NCBI GenBank assembly: GCA_029859645.1
Contig: JAOUCS010000016.1
Coordinates: 1 to 43,154, forward strand
Direction: 5' to 3'
Origin: Lysobacterales bacterium
GTDB taxonomy: Bacteria; Pseudomonadota; Gammaproteobacteria; Xanthomonadales; SZUA-36
Length of the DNA: 43,154 nt
Position 1 is the stretch's first letter. Every line of letters begins with the position of its first letter. Positions 12,912 to 18,075 of this stretch are shown here, in pieces. The translations under genes and the position numbers were made by a program. The notes under the pieces are model-generated. The model did no database searches, had not been told where the DNA came from, and was given only the letters and a program-made list of their open reading frames with translations.

Positions 12912-13736
12912 ATGACTGATGCCCGGCTCTACGTGGTGGCCACTCCCATTGGCAACCTGGAAGATATCACCCTGCGCGCCCTGGAAGTGCTTGGAGGGGT
13001 TGACGTCATAGCAGCCGAAGACACCCGCCGCACCCGTATCCTTCTGACCAGGCATCAGCTGGACAAGCCAATGGTTTCTTTGCAGGAGCACAACGAAGAG
13101 CAAAAAGCGCCGCGGTTGGTTGAGCGTCTGGCTGGAGGCGAATCCATAGCACTGGTATCCGATGCAGGGACACCTTTGCTGTCTGATCCCGGGTATCGCT
13201 TCGTCGCACTCGCGGCGCAAGCGGGTATTGAAGTGGTTGCGGTCCCTGGCCCCAGCGCCATCACGGCTGCTCTCTCGATCAGCGGACTGCCGACGGACCG
13301 ATTTACCTTCGAAGGATTCTTACCAGCACGCCATATCGCAAGGGTGAAGACGCTCGAGCGTTTACGCCTGGAAACACGAACGATGGTGTTCTTCGAGTCC
13401 AGCCACCGCATCCGTGAAAGTCTTTCAGACCTGGCGGATGTATTAGGCGCCGATCGGCCCCTGGCGGTCTGCCGGGAAATGACCAAGCAGTTCGAAACCG
13501 TTCTGCGCGGCTCCCTGTCGGAAGTGATGGACCGGGTCGAGAGTGATTCCAACCAGTCCAGGGGTGAATTCGTGCTGGTAGTAGCCGGTAATGAACCACA
13601 GCAACAGGATAAACTGTCCGATGCAGTGTTGCTGGCACAATCCTTGCTGGAGTTCCTGCCCGCCAGCCAGGCTGCCCGGGTCGCTGCCCGCGTGCACGAG
13701 GTGTCGCGGCGTGAGGTTTACTCGGCGCTGGATTAA
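12912..13736 (+). CDS. rsmI: 16S rRNA (cytidine(1402)-2'-O)-methyltransferase RsmI
   Basis: Methylates the ribose of C1402 in the decoding centre of 16S rRNA using SAM. The 274 residues show the tetrapyrrole-methylase fold signatures: LYVVATPIGNLEDITLRAL at the start, AAEDTRRTRILL, ALVSDAGTPLLSDPGYR and VVAVPGPSAITAALSISGLP. It is divergent from lpoA, the same arrangement as in other gammaproteobacteria, with 56 bp between the two preferred start codons. Confidence 0.97.
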   Translation: MTDARLYVVATPIGNLEDITLRALEVLGGVDVIAAEDTRRTRILLTRHQLDKPMVSLQEHNEEQKAPRLVERLAGGESIALVSDAGTPLLSDPGYRFVALAAQAGIEVVAVPGPSAITAALSISGLPTDRFTFEGFLPARHIARVKTLERLRLETRTMVFFESSHRIRESLSDLADVLGADRPLAVCREMTKQFETVLRGSLSEVMDRVESDSNQSRGEFVLVVAGNEPQQQDKLSDAVLLAQSLLEFLPASQAARVAARVHEVSRREVYSALD

Positions 13737-13794: not shown

Positions 13795-14160
13795 GGAGCC
13801 GGCCAGGCAATCGCCCCGTTCCAGTCTTCGGACTGACACGGGGAGGAAAGTCCGGGCTCCACAGGGCAGGGTGCCAGGTAACCCCTGGGGGGCGTGAGCC
13901 TACGGAAAGTGCAACAGAAAAGATACCGCCCCCGGATCGTTTCGGCGTGAAGGAGGTAAGGGTGAAATGGTGCGGTAAGAGCGCACCGCGCAGGTGGTAA
14001 CACGCTGCGGCATGGTAAACCCCACCCGGAGCAAGACCAAATAGGAAAGCAATACCGTGGCCCGCGGTGCTTTCGGGTAGGTTGCTCGAGGCTGCCGGTG
14101 ACGGTGGTCCCAGATGAATGATTGTCCGCGACAGAACCCGGCTTATCGGCCGGCTCCCCC
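13795..14160 (+). ncRNA. rnpB: RNase P RNA, bacterial class A
   Basis: The catalytic RNA of ribonuclease P, which removes 5' leaders of tRNA precursors. Universally conserved blocks are present in order: GAGGAAAGTCCGGGCTCC at 13843-13860, the CAGGGTGCCAGGTAAC segment near 13866, GGGTGAAATGGTGCGGTAAGAGCGCACC, the GAGCAAGACCAAATAGG block near 14030, and AGATGAATGATTG...GACAGAACCCGGCTTATCGG at about 14112-14149. The terminal P1 helix is closed by GGAGCCGGCC (13795-13804) pairing with GGCCGGCTCC (14148-14157), which sets the ends to within a few bases. It lies between rsmI and the integron-like block. Confidence 0.97.
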
Positions 14161-14162
14161 TT

Positions 14163-14250: not shown

Positions 14251-14820
14251 CTACCAATATGCTGGATCATCCAAAGCCGTCACGCATGAGGCGCGGCCGT
14301 ATTTTACCTCTAAAGGCCCTCCGCCAAGCGATTGGCCGAGCCATCCTTCAGGTTGCGAGAGTTTATAAGGGGGTTGAATTACTTCCGTTGAGAGCGGATG
14401 AAACCCAACTTTCGAGTAGAAAGAAGGGTCCCCATATGTAACGACATAGCTTACGCCCTGGCTGGTCATCTCGCGAAGCCCATGAGTAATCAGCGCTTGT
14501 CCTACTCCTGATCGCTGGTTGGCGCTGCGGACCGCGACTGGCGATAAAATAAATGCATTGAACGGCTCATCGAAGGAAAGTCGACTGAATAATATCGCAC
14601 CCAGCATTTGATTTTCGTCCACTGCGGCAAAACCGTACACATCATTGCTACCGGTGCATATGACAAGATCAGTCGCCAATCGGCTGACCAGGATACCTTC
14701 ATCTTCATCTGCAGACTCTGAGAACACTGAATAAAATAATGCTGCGATCTCAGAAGAATGCCTGGGTTCCAGAGGTCTCCACATCGTCTGAAGTGATTTG
14801 TCAGGCTGCGACCTACGCAT
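14251..14820 (-). CDS. GNAT-family N-acetyltransferase (YhbS-like), cassette 5
   Basis: A 189-residue (or 177-residue from the ATG at 14784) acetyl-CoA-dependent acetyltransferase. The acetyl-CoA loop region reads SPVAVRSANQRSGVGQALITHGL, matching the Q/RxxGxG/A motif A, followed by VTYGDPSFYSKVGFHPLS, typical of the YhbS-like subgroup. The substrate cannot be predicted. The ATG at 14820 lies only 23 bases inside the cassette boundary (attC R' at 14843), as is common for cassette genes; no good Shine-Dalgarno is seen for either start. It is the most distal cassette and has no recognisable attC after its stop. Confidence 0.82.
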   Translation of the reverse strand: MRRSQPDKSLQTMWRPLEPRHSSEIAALFYSVFSESADEDEGILVSRLATDLVICTGSNDVYGFAAVDENQMLGAILFSRLSFDEPFNAFILSPVAVRSANQRSGVGQALITHGLREMTSQGVSYVVTYGDPSFYSKVGFHPLSTEVIQPPYKLSQPEGWLGQSLGGGPLEVKYGRASCVTALDDPAYW

Positions 14821-14842: not shown

Positions 14843-14968
14843 CACTAACACCCAAAGCAAAAACAAAACCCAAATATGACCGGTGAACACATTGTAATCC
14901 TTGAACAATCTGCGCCAGCTGTGACCAACCACGAAGTGACCGGAACGAACTTGAACGACTTATTATGT
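14843..14968 (-). repeat. attC-like site 4 (after the one-TM cassette), divergent
   Basis: On the minus strand the site begins ACATAAT AAGTCGTTCAAG (14968 downward). This nearly matches the R''-L'' arm of attC site 1 (CATAACAAGTCGTTCAAG) but with AAT in place of the invariant AAC. It ends at the R' core GTTAGTG (14849-14843), preceded by GCTTTGGGT as the L' arm. It is about 126 bp, longer than the other three, and lacks their shared 19-bp arm. It is less certain than sites 1-3. Confidence 0.6.
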
Positions 14969-14986: not shown

Positions 14987-15289
14987 TCAGTCTGTATTTG
15001 CTTCAATAACAATTTGGTTCTGATCCAACTCAACTACACATCTGTATTGTCCAAAATTGTAAGCGCTATCGACGTAAATTCTATTTGTGGTGGAGAGGGT
15101 TTCTCTTTTGTATCTCAAAAAATTACCTGTATCGAGTTGGGTGATTACGCTTTGCTCAGTTACGCCTGGTCCAAAATTTGAACATAGAAATACAATCTCT
15201 TTTCTGGCTTCATTCCACACAAAACCAAACACTATCACAGCGACAAGTACTCCTGCTCCTGTGCTTGCTAAGAGTAATCGCCGCTTCAA
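14987..15289 (-). CDS. Small one-TM protein of unknown function, cassette 4
   Basis: Not recognised. The start is placed at TTG 15289 because a strong GGGAGG lies 8 bases upstream; this gives 100 residues. A GTG at 15367 in the same frame would add 26 residues but falls inside attC site 3. The product starts with basic residues (KRR), then a hydrophobic segment (about residues 4-24, LLLASTGAGVLVAVIVFGFVW), then a polar domain of about 75 residues containing two cysteines and ending ELDQNQIVIEANTD. It is probably anchored in the inner membrane with the C-terminal domain in the periplasm, though an uncleaved signal sequence is also possible. Confidence 0.65.
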   Translation of the reverse strand: MKRRLLLASTGAGVLVAVIVFGFVWNEARKEIVFLCSNFGPGVTEQSVITQLDTGNFLRYKRETLSTTNRIYVDSAYNFGQYRCVVELDQNQIVIEANTD

Positions 15290-15365
15290 AATACTGCCTC
15301 CCTGGATTGACTCAAGACTATTTCGCCGATTCGGTATCCTCGTTAACCAGAAGGTGCTTGCAGAC

Positions 15366-15449
15366 ACATAACGTTTTAGTTAAGCGGCAGCCACTGAGTG
15401 GCTGTCCGGTGGAGGTGCGCAGCGCTGCAACCAGCTTTAACGGTTTACT
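15366..15449 (-). repeat. attC site 3 (after the cupin cassette)
   Basis: On the minus strand it runs from AGTAAAC (15449-15443, R'') to GTTATGT (15372-15366, R'). The plus-strand arm TAACGTTTTAGTTAAGCGG at 15369-15387 is identical to sites 1 and 2. The centre holds the perfect inverted repeat CAGCCAC-TGA-GTGGCTG, which would form the hairpin stem of a folded attC. The cupin stop codon lies at the R'' edge, as is usual for cassette genes. Confidence 0.8.
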
Positions 15450-15924
15450 ATGCATCACCAAATGGCTCACCGTCTGCGATATTGTAAATTTTAATAGCTG
15501 TTCCGATCCGTACCATCCGCTTCCCCAATTCAGGAAAATCAGCGATTTCATGTTCCAGGTGTTCCCCACCCATCATGTATATGAGCTCTCCGTCAAAAGG
15601 GTTCGTCATGTTGTGAGCAACAGACGGCGTCGGGAAAGCAACGAAGTCTCCTGGGGCGAGTTCGTACTCTTCACCATCGATCTGGGCAACGCCTCGACCG
15701 GAGAGAATATAAATCCATTCTTCCTCCCGATGGTGCAAGTGATATGCAAAAGACTCCTTGCCGGGAGAAATACGGACCAAACTGACTCCCGTTCGGCTCA
15801 GCCCTGAAATACCACTCAAATGAGTGCCGGTGATCTCAGATTTTGGGTTCCACGGGTGAGAAAAGGTTTTTTCACCACGTTTGATGGCGTTGGCACGTAG
15901 GAGATGCGGATACTTATCACTCAT
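15448..15924 (-). CDS. Cupin-domain protein, cassette 3
   Basis: A 158-residue single-domain cupin. The two cupin motifs are visible: H-x-H-x-x-x-E-x-x-Y-x-L-x-G as YHLHHREEEWIYILSGRG (metal-binding H, H and E) and the second motif around PGDFVAFPTPSVAHNMTN with its histidine. The metal ligands are kept, so it may be an active isomerase, dioxygenase or sugar-binding protein; the substrate cannot be told. The start ATG at 15924 has a TGAGG Shine-Dalgarno 8 bases upstream and lies about 34 bases inside the cassette boundary. Confidence 0.85.
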   Translation of the reverse strand: MSDKYPHLLRANAIKRGEKTFSHPWNPKSEITGTHLSGISGLSRTGVSLVRISPGKESFAYHLHHREEEWIYILSGRGVAQIDGEEYELAPGDFVAFPTPSVAHNMTNPFDGELIYMMGGEHLEHEIADFPELGKRMVRIGTAIKIYNIADGEPFGDA

Positions 15925-15957: not shown

Positions 15958-16046
15958 GCATAACGTTTTAGTTAAGCGGAGCGTGCATAGCATGCGTCAG
16001 GTGAAGCCAGTTTGCCGCCGGAACGTACTTAAACGCTTTGTTAACT
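15958..16046 (-). repeat. attC site 2 (after the toxin-antitoxin cassette)
   Basis: On the minus strand it runs from AGTTAAC (16046-16040, R'') through AAAGCGTTTAAG (L'') to CTTAACTAAAAC and GTTATGC (15964-15958, R'). It contains the shared 19-bp arm at 15961-15979 on the plus strand. The TAA stop of the RelE-like toxin (16043-16041) lies within R'', so the cassette gene ends inside its own recombination site. Confidence 0.85.
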
Positions 16047-16304
16047 GGTTCTATACACATTTCTTCGATGGCCTAACTTCACAACAACAACTATCAACTC
16101 AGCATTCCGAATCTCATACAGAATTCGGTATACACCCTGTCTGATGCGATATTTCTCCTGACCAGAGAGTTTTTCTACACCATTCGGCCGGGGATCTGAT
16201 CTTAAGGCTTCAATGCGCTTCAAAATCTTTGCGACATCCTTTTTTGGAATTTGGTGCAGGTCTTTTGCAACTGACCGCTTGAATATGACCTCAAAGCTTC
16301 CCAT
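16041..16304 (-). CDS. RelE/ParE-superfamily toxin, cassette 2
   Basis: An 87-residue toxin expected to be an mRNA interferase or gyrase poison of the RelE/ParE fold. The sequence shows the typical layout: FEVIFKRSVAKDLHQIPK at the N-terminus, LSGQEKYRIRQGVYRILYEI in the core and VVVVKLGHRRNVYR at the end, with basic residues in the RelE-like positions. It overlaps the upstream antitoxin by 14 bp and is co-translated with it. Toxin-antitoxin cassettes are well known in chromosomal integrons, where they are thought to stabilise the array. Confidence 0.9.
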   Translation of the reverse strand: MGSFEVIFKRSVAKDLHQIPKKDVAKILKRIEALRSDPRPNGVEKLSGQEKYRIRQGVYRILYEIRNAELIVVVVKLGHRRNVYRTS

Positions 16305-16524
16305 GAGCCTTTAGATCATTCAGCAACTCTTCATAAGTAATTGTGGGCTCGTTAATTCTGTTTCCAAAGGTCTCTAAGTCTTCCTGGTCTTCCTGCAAAA
16401 CGTTGCGAACAGCCTCGTTAACAAGATCTGATACTGATCTGTGGGTAAAGGCGGCCTTCAAGCGCAAGGCTTGGTGAACCTCAGGTTCAAAATAGACTGT
16501 GGATCGTTTTGATGAATTGCTCAT
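16291..16524 (-). CDS. Ribbon-helix-helix antitoxin, cassette 2
   Basis: A 77-residue antitoxin paired with the RelE-like toxin. The N-terminus (STVYFEPEVHQALRLKAAFTHRSVSDLVNEAVRNVL) is a ribbon-helix-helix DNA-binding domain and the acidic C-terminus (DQEDLETF...YEELLNDLKAHGKL) is the expected toxin-neutralising segment. ATG 16524 is preferred because GGAGG lies 9-10 bases upstream; a longer frame to 16545 would place its start in front of that Shine-Dalgarno. Two palindromes upstream (16552-16580) are likely autoregulatory operators. Confidence 0.87.
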   Translation of the reverse strand: MSNSSKRSTVYFEPEVHQALRLKAAFTHRSVSDLVNEAVRNVLQEDQEDLETFGNRINEPTITYEELLNDLKAHGKL

Positions 16525-16551
16525 AGACTTTTCCTCCACAAACAACCTTAA

Positions 16552-16589: not shown

Positions 16590-16667
16590 AGTTAACGTTT
16601 TAGTTAAGCGGCCACGCGAAGCGTGGTCCGGTGAGCGAAGCGAACGTACTTGAACGACTTGTTATGT
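16590..16667 (-). repeat. attC site 1 (after the two-TM cassette)
   Basis: On the minus strand it reads ACATAAC (16667-16661, R''), AAGTCGTTCAAG (L''), a hairpin region with the inverted repeat CCACGC-TTC-GCGTGG, then CTTAACTAAAAC (L') and GTTAACT (16596-16590, R'). The 78-bp length and the arm sequences closely resemble those of the classical aadA cassette attC (TAACAATTCGTTCAAG and CTTAACTCAAGCGTTAG, from memory). The shared arm is at 16593-16611 on the plus strand. Confidence 0.88.
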
Positions 16668-16671
16668 TGTT

Positions 16672-16902
16672 TCATGAATCATCCGAGCGGTGTACTGATC
16701 CTTGAACATCCAGGTCTTTCTTCTTAGGCCAAAAATGATCATAGGCGAGGAAAAAAAAGAGCGAAACAATCAACCCAATTGGCACCGCCAAGAATTTGAC
16801 AAAAAATGCACTAGCCCAATCACCAAGAAGAAGATCTACAGCCATGTATAACAAGAGCCCTGCTACAACCGCCCCTGCAACTATCGAAAGAACATACTTC
16901 AC
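16672..16902 (-). CDS. Small two-TM membrane protein of unknown function, cassette 1
   Basis: Not recognised. The 76 residues form two hydrophobic helices (about residues 4-24, VLSIVAGAVVAGLLLYMAVDL, and 35-53, VKFLAVPIGLIVSLFFFLA) followed by a charged tail (YDHFWPKKKDLDVQGSVHRSDDS), probably cytoplasmic. The start is GTG 16902, only 14 bases from the attI-like junction, and no Shine-Dalgarno is visible, so expression may be weak or use another start. It is the cassette next to attI, normally the most recently inserted and best expressed from an integron promoter. Confidence 0.65.
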   Translation of the reverse strand: MKYVLSIVAGAVVAGLLLYMAVDLLLGDWASAFFVKFLAVPIGLIVSLFFFLAYDHFWPKKKDLDVQGSVHRSDDS

Positions 16903-16916
16903 TGTGACAAAAGCAA

Positions 16917-16923
16917 CATAACG
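16917..16923 (-). other. attI/first-cassette recombination junction
   Basis: GTTATGT on the minus strand matches the G^TTRRRY crossover core and the R' of the internal attC sites, and sits just outside the first cassette gene. The interval 16924-17156 between it and the integrase remnant would be the attI and promoter region. It contains no gene, and no convincing Pc promoter or LexA box was found in it. Confidence 0.55.
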
Positions 16924-17156
16924 TCAATTATGTGGAAAAAGGTAATGTAACACGTACAAATTCAGGATTTAATGCCATCACCTCTTGATTTCTCCTTTCC
17001 CGCCAATGGCTTGCATGAATTTGTGTGTAAAAGCAAATGGAGCCAATGTCCGTGTAATCACTCAAAATGCCTACCAGGGGAACCTGCTTTTGCTCTCATG
17101 AACTGGGAAATGGTTTGCGTATCCTCTCTGGTTCTTCCAATTTAGTAGGCAACCAT

Positions 17157-17354
17157 ATGACCAGGCCCAGGCTTCTGGACCAGATGCGACATTCCATTCG
17201 CTTACGCCAGTATAGCCATGATACGGAGCGTGCCTACTTGCACTGGGTCAAGCGCTTCATTCTCTTCCATTCCTTCGCCACCCACCTGCTGGAAACCGGC
17301 ACGGATATCCAGACCATCCAGTACAGGGAAGTGCTGTATGATCGGCCCCGTTAA
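17157..17354 (+). pseudogene. intI: Integron integrase remnant (internal and C-terminal deletions)
   Basis: From ATG 17157 (AGTAGG 7 bases upstream) the frame encodes PRLLDQMRHSIRLRQYSHDT, then ERAYLHWVKRFILFH, the N-terminal SAM-like domain of IntI-type integrases. The sequence then jumps directly to SFATHLLETGTDIQTIQ, the catalytic HxxR-region helix normally more than 200 residues later. The fusion point shares the histidine of FH and of RHSFATH, suggesting deletion between short repeats. After IQTIQ the family sequence (ELLGH...TTMIYTHV with the catalytic Tyr) is replaced by YREVLYDRPR and a stop. The product lacks most catalytic residues and cannot recombine DNA. Confidence 0.85.
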
Positions 17355-17543
17355 TACTGGCTGAATGCGAGGAGAGCCCCGCAGGGGCCGCTGAGCCGGA
17401 GCAGGCCCCAGCCCGGCCTTCCCCTGGCCGCCCCGCCGCGGAGAAAACTTTCTCGCCCCCAGAAAGCCACATTGCGGTCTGAGCGCTGCCACTCCCTTCG
17501 TATGTAATAAAAAGCGGATTTCAAATCTAAGTCGTTGTCGTGC
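17355..17543. other. GC-rich non-coding patch between the integrase remnant and the dcw promoter
   Basis: No gene is supported here. Bases 17375-17460 are strongly GC-rich, unlike the AT-rich cassettes, and contain short palindromes: CCCC-GCA-GGGG and GAGAAA-AC-TTTCTC (17441-17454). It may be the truncated end of whatever recombination removed the integrase 3' end, or the original upstream region of mraZ. Confidence 0.4.
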
Positions 17544-17622: not shown

Positions 17623-18075
17623 GTGTTTTTTGGAGAGACCGCAATCAATTTGGACGCTAAAGGGCGTCTGGCCATACCGATGCGCTACCGGGATGCAATC
17701 CAGGAGCGGAGTGGCGGGCAGTTGGTTCTCACCTATAGTGCATTCGACAACGGCGCTTTATACCTCTATCCAAAAGAAGAATGGGAAAGGGTGCGTGACG
17801 AAGTGACGGGATTGAGCACATTCAACCCGGGTCATCGCAGCCTGCAAAGAAAACTGGTGGGGAGTGCCAGTACAGTTGAGCCGGACGGCAACGGAAGGAT
17901 TCAATTACCGCAGACGTTGCGGCAAGTAGCAGGACTCGAAAAGAAGGTCGTACTGCTTGGAATGGGCACCCGATTCGAGATCTGGAACGAAACGGTTCTG
18001 AATCAAAAACGGGTAGAGGAAGAACGCAGTCTTGACGAAGCTGCATCAGAAGAAATGACCCGCCTGGTTTTATAG
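17623..18075 (+). CDS. mraZ: Transcriptional regulator MraZ
   Basis: An AbrB-like DNA-binding protein that represses the dcw operon by binding repeats in front of its own gene. The 150-residue product begins MFFGETAINLDAKGRLAIPMRYRD and repeats the DxxGR-type motif (EPDGNGRIQLPQTLR) in the second half, as expected for the two tandem SpoVT-AbrB domains. The start is GTG 17623, with GGGG 7 bases upstream. It is the first dcw gene, with rsmH following after 37 bp. Confidence 0.95.
   Translation: MFFGETAINLDAKGRLAIPMRYRDAIQERSGGQLVLTYSAFDNGALYLYPKEEWERVRDEVTGLSTFNPGHRSLQRKLVGSASTVEPDGNGRIQLPQTLRQVAGLEKKVVLLGMGTRFEIWNETVLNQKRVEEERSLDEAASEEMTRLVL

Follow-up and report, generated by a model that had tools for sequence, protein, structure and literature searches.

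An in-frame integron integrase stub ending in a dispersed repeat between rnpB and mraZ of a Lysobacterales genome, and its probable origin by two deletions

Inactivation of the integrase is common among integrons: one survey gives 43% and 46% (PMC3108266), and in Xanthomonas intI inactivation is described as widespread, large deletions and truncations included (PMC12444791). Deletion of intI is among the origins proposed for CALIN (PMC8618304). Here we analyze an open reading frame (ORF) that starts at position 17157 of a 43,154-nucleotide contig from a Lysobacterales bacterium (GCA_029859645.1, JAOUCS010000016.1), the whole of which we call the window. We put at roughly 87% the probability that this ORF is an inactive intI stub belonging to a small chromosomal integron, the scar of two deletions in the rnpB-mraZ region.

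A cassette array in the rnpB-mraZ region

The insertion has rnpB as its left neighbor (13795-14161, plus strand; Rfam RF00010, 331.9 bits) and mraZ as its right neighbor (17623-18075, plus strand; TIGR00242, 3.2e-36). An ORF at 12912-13736 was named rsmI, and we read the ORFs downstream of mraZ as a division and cell-wall cluster. The region between rnpB and mraZ comprises five minus-strand cassette-like units and, in divergent orientation, the stub ORF; the G+C content of the inserted stretch is 0.466, whereas stretches of 3.1 kb elsewhere in the window range over 0.527-0.603. The gene mraZ was found in 35 of the 39 family genomes, and 30 sister loci were compared, excluding those of G003, G019, G032, and G034 (G, C, and L numbers are our handles for genomes, contigs, and loci). 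At 23 of these 30 loci rnpB is also visible, the other seven having no recognizable rnpB on the available stretch. The gap between the two genes measures 157-694 bp at the 22 sister loci where they share a strand, versus 3461 bp here, the integron insertion is absent from all 23 loci that show both genes, and a match to attC-like site 1 was found at none of the 30. In G033 (L111) rnpB is reversed relative to mraZ, with a gap of 670 bp.

All features of the array lie on the minus strand. The first cassette gene, a 76-aa ORF (16672-16902) with no Pfam or NCBIfam family above cut-off, is followed by attC-like site 1 (16590-16670; D1 and D2 motifs, end motif, fold z -1.77) and by a toxin-antitoxin cassette (16041-16545), which comprises an RHH antitoxin (16291-16545; PF20605, 3.1e-6) and a RelE/ParE-like toxin (16041-16304; PF05016, 4.8e-10). 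Beyond these come attC-like site 2 (15958-16045; D1 and D2 motifs, end motif), a cupin gene (15448-15924; PF07883, 1e-17), attC-like site 3 (15366-15453; D1 and D2 motifs, 19-base end motif, fold z -1.72), a 126-aa ORF without a family match in Pfam (14987-15367), attC-like site 4 (14845-14968; aligned to repeat family D1, one end motif only), and a GNAT acetyltransferase gene (14251-14820; PF13527, 3.2e-6) that no NCBIfam model matched up to its cut-off. A fifth attC site was sought beyond the GNAT gene and none was recognized there. The sequence TAACGTTTTAGTTAAGCGG is common to three of the attC-like sites, with up to three mismatches, and the fourth has the other end motif in common with them. 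When the presumed recombining strands were folded as single strands, sites 1 and 3 beat most shuffles (z about -1.7), and sites 2 (z +0.60) and 4 folded no better than shuffles; attC-like sites are found between the cassettes, four by motif, with two of the four backed by folding.

The interval from the first cassette to the start of intI (16903-17156) presumably holds attI and the intI promoter. Its position fits, and on its minus strand a GTTATGTT core lies near 16922; no attI motif was found in it beyond this GTTA core. The sequence upstream of intI, scanned for a LexA box, has no perfect match and a single match with one mismatch. The stub on the plus strand adjoins the cassette genes on the minus strand in the divergent arrangement of a chromosomal integron, with the integrase present as a stub only.

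Among the relatives, IntI scores above cut-off in 14 of the 39 family genomes, and the attC end motif occurs in 6 of the 15 regions around their IntI matches, up to eight times in G026. Comparison of the host-side flank of intI in the window and 11 relatives (12 sequences) showed strong likeness between G014 and G030 and weak likeness between G022 and G026, and no other pair was alike at E 1e-20; integron sites therefore vary within the family. In our own reading of the ORFs, the host side shared by G014 and G030 consists of atp genes. Decay of intI is also seen among the relatives (L069, L070, L071, and L073), as pieces in different frames in G030, as an internal stop in G026, and as an N-terminal piece only, within the 18 kb read, in G025. 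Two tandem IntI-like genes are present in each of two genomes (G032:C85 and G034:C101). Elsewhere in the genome of the window, an isolated attC-like site carries the end motif of the array (L202:7144-7240, G000:C148); it lies roughly 230 bp upstream of what we read as a ribosomal protein S1 ORF.

Make-up of the integrase stub

From its ATG at 17157 the ORF passes through 38 codons of the IntI N-terminus (17157-17270, plus strand; TIGR02249 positions 1-33, PF13495), then 18 codons of the IntI helix that follows the catalytic Arg (17268-17321, plus strand; TIGR02249 positions 264-283), and finally ten foreign codons. TIGR02249 matches the ORF in these two stretches with a whole-protein E-value of 4.6e-13 and 49.2 bits, against a cut-off of 265, so the full-length match above the curated cut-off by which we recognize a functional integron integrase is not found in the stub. 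Searched genome-wide, the same model recovers profile positions 1-33 (E 2.5e-6) and 264-283 (E 2.9e-4) adjacent to one another in the window. PF13495 matches the stub at 1.2e-8, above its cut-off, and positions 134-152 of PF00589 match at E 0.029, under the PF00589 cut-off; at the DNA level, the helix part (17268-17321) is 85% identical over 55 nt to the intI of G014. The translation and the TIGR02249 and Pfam matches confirm the initial annotation, which had described an in-frame fusion of the IntI N-domain to the HSFATHLL helix, with a His shared by both parts (the codon at 17268-17270) and a frame that is open across both joints.

Catalytic positions were mapped via the IntI of G020 onto VchIntIA (2a3v; E 1.1e-84), in which we take R135, K160, H267, R270, H293, and Y302 to be the catalytic residues, with positions counted on the alignment. 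The stub retains the equivalents of VchIntIA residues up to 37 and of residues 271-288, and all six catalytic positions (R, K, H, R, H, Y) lie outside these kept parts: the first gap takes the catalytic Arg, Lys, His, and Arg, and the second takes the second His and the Tyr. The initial annotation had placed a second break after IQTIQ and ascribed to it the loss of the catalytic Tyr. The break is present and the Tyr is gone, but the loss covers all six catalytic residues, and the break is a fusion to an intergenic repeat rather than a plain truncation. A TIGR02249 search found no IntI above cut-off elsewhere in this 95.7% complete draft, and the array is CALIN-like in that no intact integron integrase was found in its genome.

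Two joints and a dispersed repeat

The two IntI stretches are spaced 798 bp apart, start to start, in G020, G014, and G035, versus 96 bp here, and therefore 702 bp, or 234 codons, are missing, in keeping with the earlier observation that the joined parts are normally more than 200 residues apart. Many of the genome-contig loci with both stretches have a spacing of 792-804 bp, and others differ through a shifted match start. The sequence at joint 1 is TTCCATTCC, in which base comparison with the forms found in relatives singles out CCAT (17267-17270, plus strand). On the first side of the joint, TTCCAT occurs in at least 11 of 67 other sequences, counted among the 25 commonest forms, and on the second side CGCCATTCC is the commonest form, in 6 of 67. 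Given these TTCCAT and CGCCATTCC forms, CCAT plausibly stood on both sides before the deletion. Four or more shared bases are expected at about 1.6% of random joints, and the sharing of CCAT is suggestive of an aid to the deletion; a repeat of this kind had been proposed as something to look for at the joint, and the CCAT of joint 1 may be one. The exact breakpoints and shared bases are probable placements that take relatives, rather than the ancestral intact gene, as their reference. We regard a deletion scar in the integron integrase as supported.

The tail that follows the helix, YREVLYDRPR, comes not from integrase but from half of a dispersed repeat. Relatives have LYREVL in the IntI N-domain, and displacement from there was considered as the source of YREVL and dropped, the tail DNA being dispersed repeat. 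This right half of the repeat (17307-17429, plus strand) is 81% identical over 123 bp to a copy in G003 (C334), a genome of the same genus as that of the window; a second G003 copy, in the opposite orientation, is 87% identical over 94 bp to 17307-17429, and a profile built without the window copy recovers the half at 17302-17398 (E 1e-20). When the full G003 copy is used to search the family, 9 of the 39 genomes contain the repeat at E 1e-6, and two further copies emerge in the genome of the window (C124 and C171); a search of the same genome with window positions 17320-17530 matched the window alone at E 0.01. The repeat is also present in G004, G005, G007, G008, G009, G025, and G028. Its core is about 144 bp long and contains internal palindromes (loci include L200:2140-2360, L221, and L222). 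One G003 copy has 34-base perfect inverted ends and the second also aligns across the ends, and what most copies beyond G003 have in common is mainly the core and not the ends. The window copy begins mid-core, at the 15-mer of joint 2, and the GC-rich DNA after the tail is included in the match.

This 15-mer (17307-17321, plus strand) is alike in intI and in the repeat. The window sequence agrees at 13 of 15 positions with the intI of G014 and with that of G020, and at 13 and 14 of 15 with the two G003 repeat copies. Compared directly, the intI and repeat 15-mers agree at 11-12 of 15 for G014 and G020, a likeness with a fixed-register chance of about 1e-4 to 1e-5, and at only 7-11 of 15 in the other eight relatives compared. 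From this comparison, the second break would be best placed within 17307-17321. The Q in DIQTIQ is instead R in all 67 other distinct helices, which were collected with a pattern that leaves this residue free and is not restricted to IntI. The repeat has CAG at the codon concerned, and fusion to the repeat within the 15-mer would therefore explain the odd Q.

With its frame open across both joints and its kept IntI residues apparently intact, the stub could in principle have been held open by selection, for instance as a small DNA-binding or interfering peptide from the integrase N-domain, and retention of the short product had been suggested initially. A search with the stub gave 28 matches in 17 of the 39 family genomes, with the whole query covered by the window's own match only, and the same fusion was found neither in the 15 relatives' regions nor in the 80 loci kept of 138 genome-contig loci, where joint-spanning candidates were read by eye. 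Its absence from every other family genome and kept locus leaves retention without support; moreover, the final ten codons derive from an intergenic repeat, the arginine of 67/67 helices is lost, and long chance ORFs are common at this locus, e.g., one of 157 aa on the opposite strand. We thus consider a retained protein extremely unlikely. An assembly artefact at either joint, or at both, is in our view just as unlikely; the initial annotation had cautioned against such a collapse. The genome is a draft of 255 contigs and a repeat is located at joint 2, but each IntI piece is single-copy in the genome, exact matches of the half-repeat to the two further copies found in the genome do not exceed 10 bases, which is not enough to confuse a k-mer assembler, and the flank beyond the stub continues into native mraZ upstream DNA.

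Origin of the stub and comparison with described integrons

A profile search also finds the repeat between rnpB and mraZ at 4 of the 23 integron-free sister loci, in G005, G015, G020, and G009 (L089, L104, L109, and L220, respectively). The G009 copy is strong (1.8e-21), and those of G005, G015, and G020 are weak (3e-8 to 3.3e-7), with a sizeable composition bias, notably for G015 and G020. In G015 and G020 the opposite flank of rnpB carries a second repeat copy. Because it is present in sister gaps, the repeat may be native here and older than the integron. This bears on whether a mobile miniature element brought in or bounded the integron and left the half copy as its remnant. The repeat half does lie exactly at the intI edge, the inverted ends of the one G003 copy would suit such an element, and there are known integrons in which one and the same MITE truncates both ends (PMC3934969). 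The profile, however, has one match in the whole window and none at the rnpB edge, and a repeat found in integron-free gaps may predate the integron; we therefore judge a mobile element improbable.

Our preferred reading remains the stub left by two deletions. The repeat may have stood between rnpB and mraZ before the integron arrived, and two deletions, in either order, would have made joints 1 and 2 with the help of short sequence similarity. The open frame would then be luck, with a chance of one in three at joint 1 and just ten codons to run past joint 2. A product without any catalytic residue would leave the array no longer reshuffled by its own enzyme, and with every such residue lost the array would therefore behave as frozen. 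We consider it highly improbable that the palindromic repeat, which other genera also have between rnpB and mraZ, was itself the entry point of the integron, e.g., as an off-target integrase substrate, and later the partner that removed the integrase; if this were true, such repeats would be a recurrent route for planting and then freezing integrons. Should likeness to this common intergenic repeat have aided the loss, dispersed repeats could be one of the ways in which chromosomal integrons become integrase-less arrays.

There is ample documentation of this type of integrase loss, and the stub is an unremarkable fossil of a familiar type. It adds a further case in which losing the integrase freezes the cassettes, and one in which both breakpoints can be read. 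Mildly new is the joining of intI to a dispersed repeat through a 15-mer that is similar in both. A literature search of limited reach found no comparable IntI-repeat fusion, and we make no claim that it is unpublished. As in the Xanthomonas integrons, whose integrases are lost by frameshifts, stops, or large deletions (PMC12444791), the cassettes remain; unlike those integrons, which are mostly downstream of ilvD, the present one occupies the rnpB-mraZ gap and has a stub that terminates in a dispersed repeat. Like CALIN, it is an attC-like array without a working integrase, whereas CALIN are defined as attC clusters lacking an integrase (PMC8618304) and a recognizable integrase stub is still present here. 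Finally, it resembles the MITE-truncated class 1 integrons of Acinetobacter in being cut off by a small repeat element; those integrons carry the same 439-bp MITE at both ends (PMC3934969), whereas here half of an unrelated-looking repeat stands at one end.
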